Shown here piece after piece: positions 8,834 through 46,665 of a stretch of 64,000 bases of DNA. The stretch covers positions 3,262,395 to 3,326,394 of the forward strand of contig NZ_AP017928.1 in the NCBI RefSeq assembly GCF_003584645.1. Reading direction: 5' to 3'. The position numbers and the translations under genes are program-made. Numbering within the stretch: position 1 is the stretch's first letter; every line of letters starts with the position of its first letter. The DNA comes from Methylocaldum marinum. GTDB lineage: Bacteria > Pseudomonadota > Gammaproteobacteria > Methylococcales > Methylococcaceae. Below the pieces are notes generated by a model. The model did no database searches and was not told where the DNA came from. It worked only from the letters and a program-made list of their open reading frames with translations.

Positions 8834-11800
8834 ATGCAAGACCATCCCGCCGCCCGGCTCGAAAAATGTGTGTACAAGGCCGTGGCGGAAGTGACCGGAC
8901 ACGCGCTCGACGAGCTTTCGCCGGACTTGTTTCTGGAGAGCGATCTCGGCCTGGATTCGATCAAGACCGTGGAGCTGATGAACGCCATCCCGCCACAACT
9001 GCCGGACCACCTGCGGGAAGCCTTCGACGCCCAACTCGGCGCCGGGACGCTATTCCAATTGCAGACCCTGGGCGAGTTGGTCGCGATCATCGCGGCCATG
9101 GGGAGCGGCGAAGCGCCCCTTCCAGCCGCGGAGGCCGATCCGCTCGCCGCGGCGCACCGTACTCCCGTTCTCGACGTCGCAGGTCGGCAAGCCTTTGCCG
9201 ACGAACCCGCCGGCTCGTCGGCTTCCTCCCGCCGCTCCGACGCGGGCGAGAAATCCGGGCTGGCGCGCAACATCCGCGAAACGGTCGCCGGCATTACCGG
9301 CCACGATCCGTCCGAACTCACCGCCGATATGTTCCTGGAGAGCGATCTGGGGCTGGATTCGATCAAGACCGTGGAGCTCATGAACGCCCTGGCTTCGGCC
9401 TTGCCGGCGGAGCTGCAGGACGATTTCGGCGCCAAGCTCGCGTCGGGCGCGCTGTTCAACATTCAGACCCTGGGCGAGCTGGAGGCTCTGATCCGAGGCG
9501 AGGAACCGGGCGCCCCGGCTCCGGCAGCCCTTGAATGCGCCTCCCCGTGCGCCAAGAGCGCGGCTCCGGCCTTGCCGGCCGATCAGCCGCCGGCCGTGGA
9601 ACCGGTGGCGCGGCCGATGGATATTCTGTTCTCCCAGTATCCCTTCCTGGTCTCCCACTGGGCGGTCTGCACCTGCAGTCTCAGCTCCCGCATCCGCCTG
9701 CAAGGTCCGTTCGACGCGGAGTTGGCGCGGCGCGCCTGGAATGCCCTGCTGGAGCGTCACCCGATGCTCAGGGCGCGTTTCGTCATTCCGCCCGGATGTC
9801 AGAGCCTCAAGGAATACCGGCTCGAAGTCCTGGACGGGGTGACCGCACCGGCGGTCGACGTGACCGATTTGCGCCATCTCGACGCTCCCGCCCGGGATGC
9901 CTTTCTGAACGACGAAACCCATCGTCTGTTGGACAAGGAATGGCACCTGGATCAATGGCCGGTGCATCAGTTCGCCGCCTATCGCTTGGCGGACGATCTC
10001 CACGAAGTGGTGTTCTCGAACCATCACGTGTTCTCGGACGGTCTCGGCAATCAGCTGGTCATGCGCGAATTCGTCACCTTGTACGCTGCCGCCGCGACCG
10101 GCCGGCCCGCGCCGCTGCCGCCCTCAACCGCGCTGGAGCGTTACCGGGAAACCGTGCAACGCATCAATGGCTGGCAGGACCCCGAGGCGGAAAAGGCCCT
10201 GGAAGCGTTTCTCCGCGCCCAGGGCAAGGACCGCTTTTTCTGGAGTCCGGAGAAGAAAGGACTGCCGAAAAATACACGGGCCGCCAATCGGACCCATCAC
10301 TTCTGCGCGGATCCCGAGACCACGGCGGCATTGCTGCGGTCGGCCGGCAAATGGCGGCTGCCGGTAAACACCCTGCTGGCGGCCGCCTACCTGCGCGCGC
10401 TGGGGTCCCTCGATCCGGCGCTGACACAGGTCATTCTGAACATTCCCACCAGCGGACGCGTTTACCCCGGCACCGACGCCGGACACATGGTGGGCTGCTT
10501 TGCCCAGAACCTGGCCTTGACGCTGACTCTGCCGGGCGAGCACGAAGCGCTGGAGAATTACCTGCCGCAACTGCACGAGCGTATCGAGAGCGCCATCGCG
10601 GCCGGTTATGACCGGGCGCAAACCCGCCAGGCCGCCGTGGCGGTGGTCGATCAGCTCCGCCTGCAGGACGGCCGCGTCGGCGAACCGCTGGCGACCCTGA
10701 TCCGCTCCACGATCAAGTCGAACCTGTATCTGCCCTATATCGGCCAGACCCGCATCGAGGAATCCTACGGCCCGCTGCGGGTGGTCGAATATCACGCCGC
10801 GACCTCGACCAATCCCGGGACCCTCGACGTCCTGGTGGAAGTCTTCCATGGCCGCTTCAACATGACCGCCAACTACGACGCGGACTATTTCACACCCGCG
10901 CTCGTGGCTGCCATCGCCGAGGAATTCGTCCGCCGGATCGGCGATGTTGCCCGCGCCGGCGAACGGCTCTCCGCGCCTCCGCCGGCTCCGCTCGCCGCGG
11001 TGGACGAGTCCCTGGCCGCCCGCTTGCTGCGCGTGACCGGGGAAGTCGCGCACCGCGCCGTGGGGCCGGAAGCCCTGGACTACGATCTGGAATCGGAGCT
11101 CGGCCTGGACTCGCTGGAACGGATTCGCATCGTCGGCCGTCTGCAGCAGCAGATGGGGCCGGTGGACACCCGCGCTCTGCTGGGCTGCCGGCGACTGCGG
11201 GAAATGGCCACCCTGTTGCAGGGAGCGGCGGGTAAAACCGAGGCCGGCGAAACAAACGCGATGGCTCGACCGGTCCCTCCGCCGACCCTCCGTCCCATGA
11301 ACGAAGAACTTCCGCCCATCCCCTATCTGCACGTGCAGGCGCAATGCCGCCGCACACCCGAAGCCCTGGCGGTACAGGCGGAACATGAGGAACTCTCCTA
11401 TGGCCGGCTGCATACCGAATCGAACCGGCTGGCACATTTTCTCAGAGCCCGCGGGGTGCGTCCCGGCATCGTGGTGGGATTGCTGCTGACCCGGTCGTCC
11501 AATTTCGCGACGGCGGTGATGGGGGTGCTCAAGGCCGGCGGCGCCTACGTTCCGATCGACCCCGCCTATCCCCCGGCGCGCATCGAATACATCGTGGCGC
11601 ACGCCCGCATCGACACCATCCTCACCGAGGAATCCGTCCTGGAAACCATGGGCGGCGCGGTAACCGCCGCCCTGCCGGCGCGCACCTTCCTGCTCATGGA
11701 CTGCGACTACGCCGGCCTGCATCGTGCCGATTCCCGTTGCGGCGACCATCGCGACTGGCTGGGACGCGCGGTCTGGGCGAGCTATCCGGAGCACGAGCCG

Positions 11801-14800
11801 GAATGCCTGAACGGGCCGGACGATCTCATGGTGGTGCTCTACACCTCGGGTTCGACCGGGACGCCCAAGGGCGTCGCCCTCGCCCATCGCGGCTACATGA
11901 ACCGCCTGGTCTGGCATCAGAAACTGTTTCAGCTCGAGCCGGGCGAGCGCGTCGCCCAAAGAACCTCGATTTGTTTCGACATCTCGGTCTGGGAGCTCTT
12001 CTGGCCTCTCATGTACGGCGGCGTGGTCTGCCCGGTCGGCGCGGACGTGCTGCGCGATCCCTGGCGGCTGGCGGACTGGATCGAGACCCGGCGGATCGCC
12101 GCAATGCACTTCGTGCCTTCCCTGTTCGGCGAGTTCCTGATCGCCATGGACAACAAATCGCCCCGCTGCGAGCACTTGCGGTGGCTGATTTTCAGCGGCG
12201 AGGCGCTGCCCGTGGCCCATGTGCAGCGCTGGTTCGACCGCTGCGGCGAACGGGTCGGCCTCGCCAATCTGTACGGTCCCACCGAGGCCTCGATCGACGT
12301 GACCGCCCATCTGATACGCTCGCGGCCGCCGGAAGGGACGCTGCGTATCCCGATCGGACCGGCCATGCCCGGGGTATACCTGCGAATCCTGGATGAAAGC
12401 ATGAAACCCGCGCCGGAGGGCGCCGTGGGTGAGCTCTGGATCGGCGGGACGCAGTTGGCGCAGGGTTATCTCCACGATCCCGAGCGGACCCGCGAGAGTT
12501 TCAGGATCAATCCTTTCTCCGACATACCCGGCCGCTGGCTATATCGCACCGGCGACCTGGTGCAGCGCTTGCCGAACGGCAGCTACGACTTCCACGGACG
12601 GGTCGACGGCCAGATCAAGATCCGCGGCTTCCGGGTGGAACTCGGCGAGATCGAAGCCGCTCTCGGCGTCCTGCCGGGTATTCGGGAAGCCGCCGCTCTC
12701 GCCATCGACACGCCGAATGGGCACAAGCGCCTGGTGGCCTGGCTGGTCGGACGCGAATTCCCCCTGAAGGACCTGCGCGCCGCCCTGGCGAAACAACTGC
12801 CGGAGTACATGCTGCCCCACGAGGTCCGTCAGGCCGATGCGCTGCCCAAGAATCATAACGGCAAACTCGACCGCAAGTCGCTCAAAGAGTGGACCGAAAC
12901 CGGCAAGGCGCCCCCCTTGAAGGCGGTTTCCGGCACGCCGGAGATCCAGCTGCCGAGCGCCGATCCTAGCGCCGGCTTGCCCCTGGGGCCGGCGCAATCC
13001 TGGATCACCCGCTTCTTCCAGCCGCCTTACCAATGGGCCGGCTACACCCGCTTCCGCTATTTGCAGCCGCTGGACGTCGACGTTTTCCGCAAGGCCATAG
13101 ACGCGCTCGCTCGGCGCCATCCGGTGCTGCGCTCCCTGTTCTACCAGGAGCACGGCGAATGGCGGCAAACCGTGGCCCCGCCCGAGTCCGAATTCAGCCT
13201 GGATTTTTATGACGGCGCCCACCTCACGGCCGAACAGCGCAGCGTGGAAATTCGGCGGCTGGTAAGGGAAATCACGGATGAACTGCGCATCGACCGGTTC
13301 CCCTTGTGGCGGGTGCTGGTCATCAAGGAGCGCGACGACGCCCACGACCTGACCATAGTGGGTCACCACATGATCAGCGACCTGGTCAGCAACAGCATTC
13401 TGTTCCGGGAGCTCTGGCAGATTTACGGACAGTTGCTGGTCGATCGGGCGCCGGAGCTTGCGCCTCCCCCGCCCTCGTATTTCGATTTCGTGCAATGGCT
13501 GGCCCAGCCGGAGCAGCAGGAAGCGCAGCGCCGTTACGCGGACTACTGGCGCGCCTGTTTCCCGAGCCGGGAATATGCCTTCCGGGTGCCGCTCGACCAT
13601 CATCTCGGCGCGAACGACGAGGCCTCTTCCGCCAGCGAGCGTTTCGTACTCGGCCATTCCGGCTTTCATGCGCTCAACGAGGCGCGCAAGCATCTCCAGG
13701 GCCAGCTCTACCATCTCCTGCTGGCGGCGGCCTACCGGCTGATGGCCGAATGGAGCGGCCAATCCCGGGTGGTCCTGAGCCACCGCTCGCACGGACGCGA
13801 TCCGGGCAATGGCCTGACCTTGTACGACAGCGTGGGCAATTACGCCGTGAATTTCCCGCTCGCCGTGGAACTGGACACCGGAGAAAGCTGGCGCGAACTG
13901 ATCGGCCGAATCGCCCGCGGCCTTGCCGAAGCGCCGTTGAACGGGATCAGCTTCGACGTGGTGGGCCGCCAATTGCCCGCGCACATCTACCCGGACAACA
14001 ATCTGACCCCGGTACGCATCAATTATTTGGGAAATCGCAGCTTACCGAAGTCCAACATCTTCGAGTTCATCGATACCGATTGGGATCAACGCTACTCGCC
14101 CCCGAGCCAGCAGCGCATATCCCTGATCGAGATTTTCCTTTCCATGGTCGAAGGCGAACTCCGGGTCGAGCTCAATTATTCCCGGAATTTTTTCAAGGCC
14201 GAGACCATCGAGCGTCTCGGCCGGCGCTACCTGGAACTGCTGAACGAGCTGAGTGCAACGCCGAACTCGCCGACCGCGCTCCGCCTGGTGAGCCCGCCGG
14301 CGGTGCCGGCGAGCGAAGCTCCGGCCCTGATACCGCTGAAAACGCCCCGGCTGCAGGAAATCCCCCTGTCGGCGCGCTCCGCCGGCCGCGCCGTCAAAGC
14401 GGCGCTGGTTACCGGCGCGAGCCGCGGCATCGGCCGGGCGATCGCCCGAAAACTCGCCGGCCAGGGCATTGCCGTGGCGCTTTCCGCCCGCGACCCGGCC
14501 GGGCTCGAGGCCGTGGCCCGGGAAATCGCCGACAGCGGCGGCACCGCCCTGGTCGTTCCGGCGGATGTGCGCAAGCTCGATGAGGTGCAACACCTGGTGG
14601 GCAAAGTCCTTTGCCGCTTCGGCCGCCTGGACGTACTGGTCAACAATGCCGGAATCACCGGCATGTCGGCCTTGGCGAGCTCCTCGCCGGAAGAATGGAA
14701 ACGCATCGTCGAAGTCAATCTGTTCGGCGCCTATCATCTGTGCCGCAGCGTGGTGCCGCACATGATCGAGCGGCGCAGCGGGAAAATCGTGAACCTGGGT

Positions 14801-15175
14801 TCCGATTCCAGCCATATCGGCTATCCGCTGTTCAGCGCCTACGCCGCCTCCAAGCACGCGGTGCTGGGCCTGACCAAGTCGCTGAGCGAGGAACTGAAGC
14901 CGCACGATGTCCAGGTCAACGCGGTCTGCCCGGCGTTCGTCGACACCGACATGACCCCGCCCGGCTACCGCGCGCGATCCATTCCGGTCGACGCGGTCGC
15001 GGACGCGGTGGCCTTCCTGGCGTCGGCGGAGGCCGACTGGATCACCGGCCAGCATCTCTGCATCTACGGCCGCCAGGACATGTACTGGTTCGGCTCGGAA
15101 AAAATGGCGGCCGTCGAGACGCGATCGGGAGTCCGCCAATCGGAGGGCGCGAGCACGGAGCGGCGGCATGCCTAA
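8834..15175 (+). CDS. Hybrid carrier/NRPS megasynthase (ACP-ACP-C-ACP-A-C-SDR)
   Basis: A 2,113-residue protein starting at ATG 8834, with GAGG at 8821-8824; a GTG at 8819 is less likely. Domains: two near-identical ACPs (LGLDSIKTVELM, Ser 42 and Ser 176); a condensation-like domain with HHVFSDG (about 397-403); a third carrier (LGLDSLERIR, Ser 760); an adenylation domain (YTSGSTGTPKG at about 1000, YGPTEAS); a second C domain (HHMISDL, about 1511); and a C-terminal short-chain reductase (TGASRGIG at about 1858, later YAASK). Aligning the A-domain pocket by eye to GrsA gives D-I-W-H-I-S-L-I-D, close to the serine code. No carrier follows the A domain, so the order is C-T-A rather than C-A-T, and no thioesterase is present. 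Its stop overlaps the next start by 8 nt. Confidence 0.93.
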   Translation: MQDHPAARLEKCVYKAVAEVTGHALDELSPDLFLESDLGLDSIKTVELMNAIPPQLPDHLREAFDAQLGAGTLFQLQTLGELVAIIAAMGSGEAPLPAAEADPLAAAHRTPVLDVAGRQAFADEPAGSSASSRRSDAGEKSGLARNIRETVAGITGHDPSELTADMFLESDLGLDSIKTVELMNALASALPAELQDDFGAKLASGALFNIQTLGELEALIRGEEPGAPAPAALECASPCAKSAAPALPADQPPAVEPVARPMDILFSQYPFLVSHWAVCTCSLSSRIRLQGPFDAELARRAWNALLERHPMLRARFVIPPGCQSLKEYRLEVLDGVTAPAVDVTDLRHLDAPARDAFLNDETHRLLDKEWHLDQWPVHQFAAYRLADDLHEVVFSNHHVFSDGLGNQLVMREFVTLYAAAATGRPAPLPPSTALERYRETVQRINGWQDPEAEKALEAFLRAQGKDRFFWSPEKKGLPKNTRAANRTHHFCADPETTAALLRSAGKWRLPVNTLLAAAYLRALGSLDPALTQVILNIPTSGRVYPGTDAGHMVGCFAQNLALTLTLPGEHEALENYLPQLHERIESAIAAGYDRAQTRQAAVAVVDQLRLQDGRVGEPLATLIRSTIKSNLYLPYIGQTRIEESYGPLRVVEYHAATSTNPGTLDVLVEVFHGRFNMTANYDADYFTPALVAAIAEEFVRRIGDVARAGERLSAPPPAPLAAVDESLAARLLRVTGEVAHRAVGPEALDYDLESELGLDSLERIRIVGRLQQQMGPVDTRALLGCRRLREMATLLQGAAGKTEAGETNAMARPVPPPTLRPMNEELPPIPYLHVQAQCRRTPEALAVQAEHEELSYGRLHTESNRLAHFLRARGVRPGIVVGLLLTRSSNFATAVMGVLKAGGAYVPIDPAYPPARIEYIVAHARIDTILTEESVLETMGGAVTAALPARTFLLMDCDYAGLHRADSRCGDHRDWLGRAVWASYPEHEPECLNGPDDLMVVLYTSGSTGTPKGVALAHRGYMNRLVWHQKLFQLEPGERVAQRTSICFDISVWELFWPLMYGGVVCPVGADVLRDPWRLADWIETRRIAAMHFVPSLFGEFLIAMDNKSPRCEHLRWLIFSGEALPVAHVQRWFDRCGERVGLANLYGPTEASIDVTAHLIRSRPPEGTLRIPIGPAMPGVYLRILDESMKPAPEGAVGELWIGGTQLAQGYLHDPERTRESFRINPFSDIPGRWLYRTGDLVQRLPNGSYDFHGRVDGQIKIRGFRVELGEIEAALGVLPGIREAAALAIDTPNGHKRLVAWLVGREFPLKDLRAALAKQLPEYMLPHEVRQADALPKNHNGKLDRKSLKEWTETGKAPPLKAVSGTPEIQLPSADPSAGLPLGPAQSWITRFFQPPYQWAGYTRFRYLQPLDVDVFRKAIDALARRHPVLRSLFYQEHGEWRQTVAPPESEFSLDFYDGAHLTAEQRSVEIRRLVREITDELRIDRFPLWRVLVIKERDDAHDLTIVGHHMISDLVSNSILFRELWQIYGQLLVDRAPELAPPPPSYFDFVQWLAQPEQQEAQRRYADYWRACFPSREYAFRVPLDHHLGANDEASSASERFVLGHSGFHALNEARKHLQGQLYHLLLAAAYRLMAEWSGQSRVVLSHRSHGRDPGNGLTLYDSVGNYAVNFPLAVELDTGESWRELIGRIARGLAEAPLNGISFDVVGRQLPAHIYPDNNLTPVRINYLGNRSLPKSNIFEFIDTDWDQRYSPPSQQRISLIEIFLSMVEGELRVELNYSRNFFKAETIERLGRRYLELLNELSATPNSPTALRLVSPPAVPASEAPALIPLKTPRLQEIPLSARSAGRAVKAALVTGASRGIGRAIARKLAGQGIAVALSARDPAGLEAVAREIADSGGTALVVPADVRKLDEVQHLVGKVLCRFGRLDVLVNNAGITGMSALASSSPEEWKRIVEVNLFGAYHLCRSVVPHMIERRSGKIVNLGSDSSHIGYPLFSAYAASKHAVLGLTKSLSEELKPHDVQVNAVCPAFVDTDMTPPGYRARSIPVDAVADAVAFLASAEADWITGQHLCIYGRQDMYWFGSEKMAAVETRSGVRQSEGASTERRHA
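9183..9202. repeat. REP-family palindrome inside the megasynthase gene
   Basis: GTCGGCAAGCCTTTGCCGAC is the same imperfect palindrome seen in the intergenic REP copies at 18379, 21876, 40324 and elsewhere. Here it sits in frame in the linker between ACP1 and ACP2 and is read as VGRQAFADEPA. Confidence 0.85.
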
Positions 15176-18374: not shown

Positions 18375-18446
18375 GTAGGTCGGCAATCCTTTGCCGACGA
18401 ACCGGCTGACCCATCCGCACCGTCGGCAAGGGATTGCCGACCTACG
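18375..18446. repeat. Inverted pair of REP palindromes (BIME-like)
   Basis: Two copies of the GTCGGCAA-N4-TTGCCGAC palindrome (18379-18398 and 18422-18441) face each other, flanked by GTAG and CTAC, so the whole unit can fold into one long stem. It lies in the 237-nt gap after the dehydratase gene; no gene is seen there. Confidence 0.8.
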
Positions 18447-25415: not shown

Positions 25416-25677
25416 CGGTGTTCGGGCTTCATCCCTGATTGAAAACCGCCGAGATTCTGATATCGATGCATTGTCTCGGTTCGCAAGCCGTACGGACGCA
25501 GTTTCCCCCGGACAGGGAAGTCGTTTTCTCCAGAGTTTCGATTCTTGCCGGAACGCGCAACTTCGCGGCTTTTGATTTTCCGGCCGTTTCAATCAGTGCA
25601 GAGCACTGGATAAGCGTGGATTGACGATTATCGACCCAACACGACACGCCCGGCATTCGGGCTTCGCACGTTCTTTT

Positions 25678-27264
25678 ATGGCCAAATCGCTTTCGAATGC
25701 GTCCGCTCACACCAAACCCGATTCCGTTTCGGCGCTGGACCGCACCGTTCTTTATCTTACCGTTTCACTGACCGGCGCCTCCGTGATGGTGCTGGAACTG
25801 CTCGGGACTCGGCTGATCGGGCCTTTTTACGGCGTCAGCATCTATGTCTGGTCATCGTTGATTTCGGTGACAATGATCGCCTTGGCGTTGGGCTATTGGC
25901 TCGGCGGCATGATTGCCGATCGGATTCCGGGGCTACGCCTGTCCTATTTGATCGCGTCGGCCGCCGTGGCCACGCTGCTGATTCCAATATTGATACGTCC
26001 GGTACTGTTGTTGACCGATCCGATGGGATTGCGCGCGGGAGCGTTTTTCAGCGCGCTGCTGCTGTTTACGGTGCCGCTGACTCTTTTGGCGATGACCGGA
26101 CCTTATGTCATCAAGCTGGCCGCGCGGCAACTCGCGAATGTGGGGGCTCTGTCGGGTTCGGTCTACGCGGTCAGCACGCTCGGCAGCGTGATCGGAACCA
26201 TCGCACTCGGGTTCTATCTGCTTCCGATGACCGGGGCGCGTGCGGTGCTTTACGGTCTCAGTGCATTGCTCGGCTTGTTGGCGTCGACCCTGGTGTTGTA
26301 CGAGCGGCGCGGTTTAGGGGGCAACGTCGCGACGCTATGCGTTGCGGTGATCGTTTTCGCGTGTTTCGGCGGCGGCGCTCTAGCCTACGAGCATCATCGC
26401 CCGCAGCCCTGGGGCAAGGGTTTGACGCTGCTTTACGAATCCGAGAGCGTCTACGGCTGGGTTCGGGTTATCGACGACCAGGCGCAGAAGGTGCGGTTCA
26501 TGATGTCGGACGCCTCGACGATCAGTGCCGCGGATTTGGATAATGTCCGCTCGGGCTTGTTGTCGTATCAATGGGTGACGCAACGGCTGCCGGTCTTCAG
26601 GCCCGCTGCCCGCTCCGCGCTGTTGATCGGCCTGGGCGGCGGTCATATCGCGGCCGGCCTGGAGCGCCAGGGCGTCAAGACCGATGCGATCGAGATCGAT
26701 CCCGCGGTTGCCTACGCAGCTTCGCGCTATTTCCATTATCACCCCTCCGGCGACTTGCTCATCGGCGATGCCCGTTACCAAATCCGGCGCCTGAACAAGA
26801 CATACGATTTCATCATTCACGATTGTTTCACCGGCGGCTCGGAGCCGGCCCATCTGATGAGTATCGAGACTTTGAGGGAACTGAAGGCGCATCTCAATTC
26901 GGGCGGCATATTGGCCATCAACTTCGTCGGCTTTGCCGAGGGCGAGCGCCGAATGCCCGCTCAGCTGGTTTACCGGACCTTGGGGGAAGTATTCGAGCAT
27001 CGCCGGGTTTACGTATCGGAACCCGATTCCGAATTCAACGATTTCATCTTCTTTGCCGCGGACGAGCCGATCAACGTCCATCCGGAAGCGGCCAGCGCGA
27101 GAACGCTGGACTTATTGGCTAAGCGTCGGTTTTTTGGAATGACCGAAGGCGAACGCATCGTGACCGATGATTTCAATCCGCTTGAAAGCCTGCAAGTCAG
27201 CAAGGCGGAAATGTACCGCAAGGTGCTACTGGAGCGGGTCGGTATGGATGTCTTGCTGCGCTGA
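25678..27264 (+). CDS. Membrane-bound spermidine-synthase-like protein, copy 1
   Basis: A 528-residue protein from ATG 25678; the frame is open upstream, but the second copy shares sequence only from 25676, so this ATG is preferred. The first ~230 residues are hydrophobic with several membrane helices. The rest is a Rossmann methyltransferase-like fold of the spermidine-synthase family: LIGLGGGHIAAGLE, DAIEIDPAV, GDARYQI, DFIIHDCFTGG. Such fused proteins are widespread and mostly uncharacterised; true aminopropyl transfer is not assured. The protein is identical to copy 2 (32341-33927) over its whole length. Confidence 0.8.
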   Translation: MAKSLSNASAHTKPDSVSALDRTVLYLTVSLTGASVMVLELLGTRLIGPFYGVSIYVWSSLISVTMIALALGYWLGGMIADRIPGLRLSYLIASAAVATLLIPILIRPVLLLTDPMGLRAGAFFSALLLFTVPLTLLAMTGPYVIKLAARQLANVGALSGSVYAVSTLGSVIGTIALGFYLLPMTGARAVLYGLSALLGLLASTLVLYERRGLGGNVATLCVAVIVFACFGGGALAYEHHRPQPWGKGLTLLYESESVYGWVRVIDDQAQKVRFMMSDASTISAADLDNVRSGLLSYQWVTQRLPVFRPAARSALLIGLGGGHIAAGLERQGVKTDAIEIDPAVAYAASRYFHYHPSGDLLIGDARYQIRRLNKTYDFIIHDCFTGGSEPAHLMSIETLRELKAHLNSGGILAINFVGFAEGERRMPAQLVYRTLGEVFEHRRVYVSEPDSEFNDFIFFAADEPINVHPEAASARTLDLLAKRRFFGMTEGERIVTDDFNPLESLQVSKAEMYRKVLLERVGMDVLLR

Positions 27265-27537: not shown

Positions 27538-27852
27538 GTTAGGCCGCTATGAGGCAGGCATCCTTTAAACACGATCGAAAGCCAGGCTCTCGTCCAGCCC
27601 GTCGGCGGGAAATCGGCACTCCCTCCCCCGGCATCCCGACCAAAAAGTAACCAAAAATTTACTTTTTTCGAACCGCGTCCGCATAATTTTCGGCTAGCCT
27701 TAAGCGTTACCTAACAAGAACGATCCACGCAGGATGTCGTTTCCAATCCCCGGCTGCAGCGCATCGGGGACGCCGGGCCTCCTTCCCGGTGGACTGAAAT
27801 CCCAACTGTAGCGAACTCGCCCGAAACATCGGCTCAGGACCGAACAACGCCC
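27538..27852. other. Gene-free leader of vgrG, copy 1
   Basis: It contains the rest of the GTAGGGTGAGTTA repeat, then AT-rich DNA (CCAAAAAGTAACCAAAAATTTAC, about 27640-27664) that may carry the vgrG promoter. No gene is seen. The same stretch occurs at 34201-34515. Confidence 0.5.
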
Positions 27853-28608
27853 ATGACATACATCCAAGGAACACGACTGATCAAGGTTTATTCCCCGCTC
27901 GGCCCGGACGTTTTGCTGTTTCACGACATGACCGGCCGGGAACGCCTGGGCGGCCTGTTCAGCTATGAACTGGATCTCCTCAGCACCGTCGGCAGCCTCA
28001 ACCCGGACCAGCTCCTCGGCGACCGCCTGGATGTCGCCCTGACCCTCCCCGACGACAGCGTCCGCTATTTCAACGGCGTCGTCTGCCGCTTCGCCCAACT
28101 CGGCGCCACCGAGGACGAACGGCGCACCCTGGTCCGTTACCGGGTCACCTTGAGACCCTGGCTCTGGCTGCTCACCCGCACCGCGAACTGCCGCATCTTC
28201 CAAAAGAAAACCGCCCCCGACATCACGGTGCTGCGCTACGTGCAGCAAGGGTGCCATTGGATCACCCTGATTCTGGACAATGCCCGCACCCATCGGCACG
28301 CCATGGAAGTGGCCGCAAGGGAGTTGCTGTCGGAGATCGCCGAACTCGCCCACTGGCCGGACTTGGAAGCCACCACGGTGGAGTTTCTGCATACCCCCCC
28401 GTACTCGCCCGCTCTCAACCCGGCCGAGTATCTGATCCATTGGGTTCGCCAAGAGACTCTTTATCATCTACCCTGCACCTTCACGCTCCAGGAAAAGGCG
28501 GATCGCGTTCGTCACCATCTCGCCCAGGCGCCGCCCTTCACTCCCGAACAAATGCAAAAGCTCCTGCGCCATATTTACAAGTTGCCAAAGGATAAAACAG
28601 TAAAATAG
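27853..28608 (+). pseudogene. vgrG 5' end fused to an IS630 transposase 3' end
   Basis: A 251-codon chimeric frame. Codons 1-124 match the N-terminal gp27-like part of VgrG at 34516. At about 28225 the match ends abruptly, and the frame continues as the C-terminal catalytic half of an IS630-family transposase (ITLILDNARTHRHAME, later TPPYSPALNPAEY), with its last Asp and Glu. The stop codon TAG at 28606-28608 is formed at the edge of the adjoining IS5-family element. Neither part is functional alone: the VgrG lacks its spike and the transposase its N-terminal half. Confidence 0.8.
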
Positions 28609-32338: not shown

Positions 32339-32340
32339 TT

Positions 32341-33927
32341 ATGGCCAAATCGCTTTCGAATGCGTCCGCTCACACCAAACCCGATTCCGTTTCGGCGCTG
32401 GACCGCACCGTTCTTTATCTTACCGTTTCACTGACCGGCGCCTCCGTGATGGTGCTGGAACTGCTCGGGACTCGGCTGATCGGGCCTTTTTACGGCGTCA
32501 GCATCTATGTCTGGTCATCGTTGATTTCGGTGACAATGATCGCCTTGGCGTTGGGCTATTGGCTCGGCGGCATGATTGCCGATCGGATTCCGGGGCTACG
32601 CCTGTCCTATTTGATCGCGTCGGCCGCCGTGGCCACGCTGCTGATTCCAATATTGATACGTCCGGTACTGTTGTTGACCGATCCGATGGGATTGCGCGCG
32701 GGAGCGTTTTTCAGCGCGCTGCTGCTGTTTACGGTGCCGCTGACTCTTTTGGCGATGACCGGACCTTATGTCATCAAGCTGGCCGCGCGGCAACTCGCGA
32801 ATGTGGGGGCTCTGTCGGGTTCGGTCTACGCGGTCAGCACGCTCGGCAGCGTGATCGGAACCATCGCACTCGGGTTCTATCTGCTTCCGATGACCGGGGC
32901 GCGTGCGGTGCTTTACGGTCTCAGTGCATTGCTCGGCTTGTTGGCGTCGACCCTGGTGTTGTACGAGCGGCGCGGTTTAGGGGGCAACGTCGCGACGCTA
33001 TGCGTTGCGGTGATCGTTTTCGCGTGTTTCGGCGGCGGCGCTCTAGCCTACGAGCATCATCGCCCGCAGCCCTGGGGCAAGGGTTTGACGCTGCTTTACG
33101 AATCCGAGAGCGTCTACGGCTGGGTTCGGGTTATCGACGACCAGGCGCAGAAGGTGCGGTTCATGATGTCGGACGCCTCGACGATCAGTGCCGCGGATTT
33201 GGATAATGTCCGCTCGGGCTTGTTGTCGTATCAATGGGTGACGCAACGGCTGCCGGTCTTCAGGCCCGCTGCCCGCTCCGCGCTGTTGATCGGCCTGGGC
33301 GGCGGTCATATCGCGGCCGGCCTGGAGCGCCAGGGCGTCAAGACCGATGCGATCGAGATCGATCCCGCGGTTGCCTACGCAGCTTCGCGCTATTTCCATT
33401 ATCACCCCTCCGGCGACTTGCTCATCGGCGATGCCCGTTACCAAATCCGGCGCCTGAACAAGACATACGATTTCATCATTCACGATTGTTTCACCGGCGG
33501 CTCGGAGCCGGCCCATCTGATGAGTATCGAGACTTTGAGGGAACTGAAGGCGCATCTCAATTCGGGCGGCATATTGGCCATCAACTTCGTCGGCTTTGCC
33601 GAGGGCGAGCGCCGAATGCCCGCTCAGCTGGTTTACCGGACCTTGGGGGAAGTATTCGAGCATCGCCGGGTTTACGTATCGGAACCCGATTCCGAATTCA
33701 ACGATTTCATCTTCTTTGCCGCGGACGAGCCGATCAACGTCCATCCGGAAGCGGCCAGCGCGAGAACGCTGGACTTATTGGCTAAGCGTCGGTTTTTTGG
33801 AATGACCGAAGGCGAACGCATCGTGACCGATGATTTCAATCCGCTTGAAAGCCTGCAAGTCAGCAAGGCGGAAATGTACCGCAAGGTGCTACTGGAGCGG
33901 GTCGGTATGGATGTCTTGCTGCGCTGA
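32341..33927 (+). CDS. Membrane-bound spermidine-synthase-like protein, copy 2
   Basis: Identical in protein sequence to 25678-27264 (528 residues, N-terminal membrane helices then a spermidine-synthase-like Rossmann domain). Its upstream DNA is now the interior of a broken oxidoreductase gene, so any native promoter is missing unless it lies within the repeat. A frame open upstream adds an unrelated 115-residue leader that should be ignored. Confidence 0.8.
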   Translation: MAKSLSNASAHTKPDSVSALDRTVLYLTVSLTGASVMVLELLGTRLIGPFYGVSIYVWSSLISVTMIALALGYWLGGMIADRIPGLRLSYLIASAAVATLLIPILIRPVLLLTDPMGLRAGAFFSALLLFTVPLTLLAMTGPYVIKLAARQLANVGALSGSVYAVSTLGSVIGTIALGFYLLPMTGARAVLYGLSALLGLLASTLVLYERRGLGGNVATLCVAVIVFACFGGGALAYEHHRPQPWGKGLTLLYESESVYGWVRVIDDQAQKVRFMMSDASTISAADLDNVRSGLLSYQWVTQRLPVFRPAARSALLIGLGGGHIAAGLERQGVKTDAIEIDPAVAYAASRYFHYHPSGDLLIGDARYQIRRLNKTYDFIIHDCFTGGSEPAHLMSIETLRELKAHLNSGGILAINFVGFAEGERRMPAQLVYRTLGEVFEHRRVYVSEPDSEFNDFIFFAADEPINVHPEAASARTLDLLAKRRFFGMTEGERIVTDDFNPLESLQVSKAEMYRKVLLERVGMDVLLR

Positions 33928-40229: not shown

Positions 40230-40910
40230 CCGGAGCGCCGGCCGGGCCGGTTTCATCTCGCGTGTACGACGAAACAGGCCGGGCGGAAATTCTTGGAGGC
40301 TTCAGCCAGAGTAGATAATCTTCGTCGGCAAGCCTTTGCCGACGAAGGTGCCCGGACGGGACGCGGCGTCGGGAAGGACGGTTTCGGCGCTCCCGAAGGC
40401 GCCGTTTGCGATTGCAAAAGGATTTCCGACCTATCCGCTGGCGGAGTCCACGATCGTCCGGCAGCACGGCGTAAGCCCCCGCAGCAGCCGGCTCGCGTCC
40501 AAGTTGCGATCGCATTCCTTTTCCAGACCCCGGCTGCTGCGCACCCGATTTAGCTAGCCATAGAGGTAAAGCTTCGGCAGCGCCACCGACGGGAAAGCCG
40601 GCTGGCCCGCCGTGCTCGGGTACGCTGCCATCCGCACAAAGCTCGGGCCCGCCAAGTCCAACCCATCCACAGGCGTCGACCGCACGCACCGAATGATCCA
40701 CCCCCAGGCAGGCCGGCAGCGGACCCGCGGTCTACGCCCTCCTTATGTCGGCGAATCATCACGGACCTTTGGCTGAGTGCATGGAACCAGGCCGCCATGC
40801 TGACAAGAGGTTTTTCTTTCACCGCCTTGCAGCGCATTACCGGAACATGGGAGTTACGGAATTCTCAATGTTCCCACATGCTCGCTACGGGTTACCGCTT
40901 CAGGTCCTTC
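40230..40910. repeat. Gene-free stretch with a REP copy and a REP variant
   Basis: REP palindrome at 40324-40343, then a variant with GTCGGGAAGGA, a 37-bp core (40383-40419) and TTCCGAC. The core recurs inside the IS256 remnant at 46371-46405. On the - strand 40557-40700 a frame reads SFVRMAAYPSTAGQPAFPSV to a stop; it could be the end of a lost gene but is not recognised. Confidence 0.5.
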
Positions 40911-46223: not shown

Positions 46224-46665
46224 TCATAGGGTAACCCTTTCGCCGAAGAGGATCACGAAGTGGTTCAAAGCCCGCTTCCAATCCTGGACCGGCATGGTCC
46301 ATTTCTTCTCGATCCGCTGCAGCCCGAGGTACAGGACTTTCAGAATCGCCTCATCGTTTGGAAGGGTGGCTCCGGCGCTCCCGAAGACACCGTTTGCGAT
46401 TGAAAACGCGCCGCGGGTCTTAAGCAGCTTGCGCAGGCTGAAGTTGAGCGATTCGATGGCGTTGGTGGTATACAACACTTTGCGGATTTGAGGCAGCGCA
46501 TCCTGCGCTGCCCGCTTCGCGCGCCGGTGCATCCAAATTTGGCTCCCGGCCAATCTGTCCGGCGGATCATCGAAGAACACGGTCAAGCGCGCTCAAGCCG
46601 CCCGCCAGCTTTCGCTGATGACCGGGTATTTCGCGTCCCAGGTGTCAGCAAACCGCGCCAGGGCG
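46224..46665 (-). pseudogene. IS256-family (mutator-type) transposase remnant
   Basis: C-terminal third of an IS256 transposase: FADTWDAKYPVISESWRAA, then an in-frame TGA, then LTVFFDDPPD and IRKVLYTTNAIESLNFSLRKLLKTRGAF, then about 14 foreign residues (SIANGVFGSAGATL) and PNDEAILKVLYLGLQRIEKKWTMP. The catalytic N-terminal half is missing and there is a nonsense codon, so it is inactive. The inserted residues come from a 35-bp piece also found at 40383-40419. Confidence 0.82.

Follow-up and report, generated by a model that had tools for sequence, protein, structure and literature searches.

Within the 64-kb stretch of the Methylocaldum marinum genome analyzed here (referred to as the window), the gene under study encodes a PKS/NRPS-type synthase of 2113 amino acids. 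Pfam identified three PP-binding stretches, two Condensation stretches, one AMP-binding domain and one adh_short/KR domain in the protein, and from these hits together with the sequence we read the domain order ACP1-ACP2-C-ACP-A-C-KR. The features referred to below are as follows, where the sister is Methylocaldum sp. 14B and C9 is one of the copies of a mobile element (MITE) in its genome.

8834 to 15175, + strand: PKS/NRPS-type synthase gene, 2113 amino acids (translation; Pfam)
8834 to 9109, + strand: ACP1, residues 1-92 (84% amino acid identity with the sister orthologue; helical fold, block pLDDT 64-86)
9110 to 9262, + strand: inter-ACP linker, residues 93-143, probably largely MITE derived (48% amino acid identity to the sister; pLDDT below 50 at residues 93-138)
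9116 to 9204, + strand: putative MITE relic comprising the left body and a nested REP (82% identical to sister copy C9 at the DNA level, E 2.2e-19)
9179 to 9202, + strand: GTAG-class REP unit, here with the tag GCAG, read in frame (exact REP core; tag counts)
9246 to 9261, + strand: putative right (3') inverted-repeat remnant of the MITE, GCGAGAAATCCGGGCT (exact 16-mer with the MMPL copy; same junction in the sister gene)
9272 to 9493, + strand: ACP2, Pfam PP-binding, residues 147-220 (Pfam; 87% amino acid identity to the sister)

The REP palindrome GTCGGCAAGCCTTTGCCGAC lies exactly at positions 9183 to 9202, between ACP1 and ACP2 and in the frame of the synthase ORF, where it encodes the peptide VAGRQAFADEPAG. 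The initial annotation of this DNA had correctly located this translated 20-bp palindrome, but its rendering of the linker as VGRQAFADEPA dropped one Ala, since the REP region reads LDVAGRQAFADEPAGSS in full; the predicted protein sequence across the linker includes AFADEPAGSSASSR. Its count of at least ten further copies in the window also stands, as we located ten with up to 4 mismatches (at 18379, 18422, 18962, 21876, 21985, 40324, 51301, 51345, 52606 and 52632), the one at 40324 being identical to the palindrome at 9183. The flanking bases were said to resemble those of the intergenic copies at 18379 and 21876, and the downstream bases there, GACGAACC and GACGAACCCG, respectively, do agree. 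As a separate observation on repeats in the window, positions 25676 to 25975 and 32339 to 32638 are identical 300-nt stretches 6663 bases apart; they belong to a longer duplicated region, in which further repeats recur at this distance.

Strict REP palindromes occur 445 times in the 6,088,916-bp genome versus 0 times for the reversed control pattern, which rules out a chance palindrome at 9183. A GTAG tag precedes 71 of 103 oriented copies, while GCAG, as in the linker copy, precedes 6 of 103. The family thus agrees with GTAG-class REPs, which are high-copy palindromes of 20 to 40 bp with GTAG at one end and an associated REP-flanked RAYT. The RAYT gene (L246:1884-2432, corresponding to G000:C1:3794383-3794931; NF047646 match, E 1.1e-37) was found among the weaker Y1-transposase matches and has arrays of strict linker-type REPs on both sides. 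With these arrays around it, the locus looks like a classical RAYT/REP system, and the RAYT is a likely source of REP mobility. Around the eight strongest Y1-transposase loci, no strict REPs were found within about 1.5 kb on each side. Five nearly identical Y1-transposase genes of the same genome (L031 to L035) are IS200/IS605-like by score, and their fetched flanks contain no strict REPs.

The palindrome had been described as otherwise intergenic, which holds as a strong tendency rather than as a rule. In the first 1.2 Mb of the genome, to which our survey of coding REPs refers, 23 of 97 REPs fall into ORFs of at least 150 amino acids, compared with 74.5% of 5000 random positions, and 8 of 97 into ORFs of at least 300 amino acids, compared with 60%. 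Pfam scanning of seven REP-spanning ORFs found no domains in six of them and, in the seventh, a P-type ATPase frame, only domains downstream of the REP, so that none of the seven resembles the window synthase in having domains on either side of its REP. The REP of this ATPase frame (L217:8260-10857; G000:C1:808260-810857) lies near codon 84 and the first Pfam domain begins at residue 149, so the REP may precede the true start; it is either a coding REP or a sign that the start codon was placed too far upstream. This assessment is based on the ORF counts and Pfam, not on our two coding models, of which the first discriminated poorly (3 REPs out of 97 with coding signal on both sides) and the second, which gave 0 out of 97, has a low sensitivity because its threshold equals the coding median. 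Within the window, only the 9183 copy had a coding signal on both sides in a coding model of low sensitivity.

For the synthase, we found a single orthologue among 61 genomes, four genus genomes and a pattern-based scan of 84,980 genomes, namely, that of Methylocaldum sp. 14B, which is 85% identical. The 84,980-genome scan returned one further, distant match (28%) in Rhodococcus and no tandem-ACP orthologue with an empty site. Between the two Methylocaldum proteins, identity is 84% in ACP1, 87% in ACP2 and 85% in the rest but drops to 48% where the linkers can be aligned. Apart from one gap of 2 residues, the alignment is gapped only in the linker, over 61 columns. The sp. 14B gene has both ACPs and a linker without any REP. 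Within either species, ACP1 and ACP2 are only 52 to 55% identical, compared with 84 to 87% for orthologous ACPs, indicating that the ACP duplication predates the species split. The suggestion that the REP may have accompanied the ACP duplication thus finds no support in this form, and the REP is not its cause.

The sp. 14B linker turned out to be a terminal-inverted-repeat element, complete and 285 bp long, of which about a dozen copies are scattered through the genome; parts of it recur there at 88 to 97% identity. A search of the linker DNA against its own genome gave 30 matches at E values up to 1 (itself included), the strong ones with 84 to 97% identity over 50 to 203 bp. Aligned copies have the common ends CTAGCCCGCATTTCTCAC...GTGAGAAATGCGGGCTAG, forming inverted ends of 17 to 18 bp (CTAGCCCGCATTTCTCAC and its reverse complement). 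The end pattern occurs 31 times in the sp. 14B genome at up to 2 mismatches, many of these as inverted pairs, versus 2 times for the reversed control. The nine copies that we extracted are 184 to 474 bp long and differ in their inner segments. Given its terminal inverted repeats, many dispersed copies and lack of a transposase, we classify the element as a MITE. The linker copy measures 285 bp from the left to the right inverted repeat, the latter ending at helix 1 of ACP2. Most copies have CTAG at both ends, and the empty sites found in the M. marinum genome read CGGG (in the MMPL gene described below) and CTAA (at a gene end), which is compatible with a 4-bp CTAR-like target but short of proving a target duplication. 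A pattern search for an autonomous partner in four genus genomes found no inverted end pair with insertion-sequence spacing among the places listed, and a plasmid search with the MITE query gave no match. A TIR-pair pattern likewise had no match over 301 genomes, a result that is uninformative because the pattern also missed the sister genome, which has the element. Two repeats of the window, at 40367 to 40418 and 46355 to 46406, contain a TTTGCGATTG motif that resembles the CAATCGCAAACGG segments found within the long MITE copies of the sister; one of these repeats adjoins the REP at 40324.

One sp. 14B gene cluster contains three MITE copies within about 17 kb, located in the ACP linker, inside an MMPL gene and at the synthase 3' end:

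sp. 14B, L059 G001:C42:21265-21737 and 27653-27937, and L135 G001:C42:37840-38023: the three MITE copies of the sister cluster

The second of these copies (184 bp) lies in the C-terminal part of a 903-amino-acid MMPL transporter frame. In the M. marinum orthologue, 707 of 783 aligned residues are identical and the insert is absent, so that the empty site is available for comparison; the net insertion is 180 bp if the 4-bp target is counted once, and the tail after the insert, as read from the DNA, is recognizable and in frame. The third copy adjoins the synthase 3' end, where its CTAG end provides the stop codon; the window has GCATGCCTAAATCC at this place. A 460-amino-acid frame at C42:21548 of the sister was discarded as spurious, since it lies on the opposite strand over the end of this synthase gene. 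Judged from the sequences, in-frame insertion of the kind known for Rickettsia palindromic elements (RPEs) would thus apply to the linker frame in both species and to the MMPL insertion with its empty site, giving two in-frame coding copies in the sister genome and one relic in the window genome. The frame used in the genes has no stops in 4 of the 9 MITE copies (C1, C9 and the two genic ones), whereas the remaining five have 1 to 5 stops in it. That the genes share this frame is weak evidence of design, since both genic copies have a second stop-free forward frame.

Comparison with these copies indicates that the window linker, too, is a shortened relic of the sister MITE. With the REP-bearing copy C9 as the query, the matches listed for the window genome besides that at 9116 to 9204 extended over no more than the REP and a few adjacent bases. 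When the REP was left out of the query, a single match remained in the window genome at E values up to 1e-4, at 9117 to 9166 (E 2.4e-8), while 36 of 38 family genomes gave no match. The non-REP segment at 9109 to 9176 aligned to C9 with a score of 66, which none of 2000 shuffles and none of 3986 segments of the window reached. On the right side, the segment at 9206 to 9265 reached significance against the MMPL copy only (0 of 2000 shuffles). The sister linker copy gave a weak result (14 of 2000), and the comparisons with C9, C7 and C8 were not significant (116, 191 and 421 of 2000, respectively). Exact 16-mers at 9151 and 9246 are common to the window linker and the MMPL copy, and neither occurs in a 1.2-Mb sample. 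The left inverted repeat is missing from the window linker. The right one occupies the orthologous junction in M. marinum and in sp. 14B alike, pointing to a single ancestral insertion.

These results bear on two other accounts of the linker. The initial annotation had a mobile repeat inserting in frame, which remains correct insofar as a mobile repeat is predicted to be translated in the inter-ACP linker; the REP, however, sits inside a larger inverted-repeat relic. That a lone REP jumped into an ordinary linker, with the MITE likeness due to chance or composition, would fit an exact REP in an otherwise strongly diverged linker, but the REP-free match at 9117 to 9166, the shuffle test with 0 of 2000 and the MITE end at the orthologous junction lead us to reject this account as highly improbable. 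Another possibility is that the MITE family itself arose by capture of the native linker of the synthase and then spread in the sister genome. The linker is indeed the only detectable MITE remnant in the window genome, which counts in favor of such an origin, but most sister copies lack, or have replaced, the linker-like left body. Moreover, the right inverted repeat sits at the end of the linker, so that a captured linker would by chance need to have provided a functional transposon end, and we regard this direction as quite unlikely.

If the linker is a MITE relic, the question becomes how the REP came to lie inside it. REPs are present in 4 of the 9 sister MITE copies (C9, C8, C7 and C42a), in all of them just after CTCGACGT, and the window REP occupies the same place; at that internal site, the MMPL, linker and C1 copies contain a segment without a REP. 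The window reads CTCGACGTCGCAGGTCGG here, compared with CTCGACGTCGTAGGTCGG in C9 and C8, and, according to the sequences, the reading frame of the window REP is the one expected from C9. With REPs occupying one and the same internal site in four sister copies, the most likely origin of the window REP is arrival within the MITE or exchange with a MITE, and a separate jump of a lone REP appears unnecessary. Because the sister orthologous copy is without a REP and the inner segments differ, this reading must assume one insertion followed by exchange. Two successive insertions, i.e., an ancestral linker MITE and a later, RAYT-driven REP jump in the window lineage into the MITE body at the REP target site of other MITE copies, would instead account directly for the REP-free sister copy of the same insertion and could draw on the RAYT and its REP arrays in the window genome. 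In addition, the GAACCCG that follows the window REP is also found behind 5 of the 103 oriented REPs sampled from the window genome, which leaves room for a later exchange or a second insertion at the site. Set against this are the shared internal position of the REP in four sister copies, with the preceding bases CTCGACGTCG alike, and the presence of a single REP where a pair is usual, so that two insertions seem to us possible but doubtful.

Our best explanation, to which we assign a probability of about 0.77, is domestication of a MITE, with a REP nested in it, as the linker between ACP1 and ACP2. According to this scenario, a MITE with CTAR-like target sites would have inserted in frame between ACP1 and ACP2 before the split of sp. 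14B and the window species, as suggested by the shared right junction, and both genomes have two ACPs plus MITE sequence in the linker. REP units, presumably mobilized by the RAYT/REP system, entered MITE copies at one internal site, as seen in the four sister copies, and the window linker would descend from such a composite copy or have gained its REP by exchange with one. It would then have lost the left inverted repeat and part of the body while keeping the frame, and the relic would have persisted with no other recognizable MITE copy left in the window genome. The insertion was probably tolerated because its site is predicted to be an unstructured spacer between two folded carrier domains. 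An AlphaFold model of the window ACP region, based on an alignment of two sequences only, gave block pLDDT values of mostly 70 to 86 for both ACPs and below 50 for residues 93 to 138, the MITE/REP-encoded linker; with a pTM of 0.39, the model does not predict how the domains are placed relative to one another. The best reading of this model is that the linker is a flexible spacer that tolerates insertion. The insertion would lengthen the tether without adding a catalytic function and was probably neutral at first, and it is possible that the element influences the spacing or cooperation of the ACPs.

In-frame mobile palindromes are already known, and the window linker is a nested variant of them. 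Rickettsia palindromic elements (Ogata et al. 2000/2002) are described, in the part of a review that concerns them (PMC10969869), as small mobile palindromes that lie in frame in protein genes, are translated and are apparently tolerated. The likeness concerns the in-frame behavior alone, which is here read from DNA; unlike RPEs, our case concerns a methanotroph synthase and a MITE that has inverted ends of 17 to 18 bp and contains a REP, with two coding sister copies and one relic. GTAG-class REPs with a RAYT are known to occur inside genes, where flexible linkers or loops were suggested to tolerate them in the relevant section of an earlier report (PMC3733652). The window REP is likewise of the GTAG class, high copy and accompanied by a REP-flanked RAYT, but it lies within a MITE relic and not directly in the gene. 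MITEs, finally, are treated in the same review (PMC10969869), in its section on these elements, as nonautonomous inverted-repeat elements that contribute coding sequence and in-frame fusions. In contrast to the fusions covered there, the MITE of the window and sister genes forms a tandem-ACP linker, has a second in-frame copy with an empty site and survives as a lone fossil in one species. The literature that we searched yielded no published account of MITE/REP nesting in a carrier-protein linker or of a fossil surviving in one species, and nothing on this case under in-frame MITE linkers of polyketide synthases or Methylocaldum polyketide synthase.

A broader interpretation, which we offer tentatively and consider rather unlikely in its full form, is that the MITE family has been a recurrent donor of translatable linkers in one biosynthetic cluster. 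Linkers would then be rewritten by exchange between copies with or without REPs, carrier-domain spacing would evolve by cut and paste, and the coding copy would be the sole survivor in the window species. Together, the orthologue and the empty site of the second copy document a way in which nested mobile repeats may become translated sequence in a megasynthase, and they show that coding sequence can retain the fossil of an element that is undetectable in the rest of the genome. The linker pair of the two species constitutes a natural test of how far the length and sequence of an inter-ACP linker matter.
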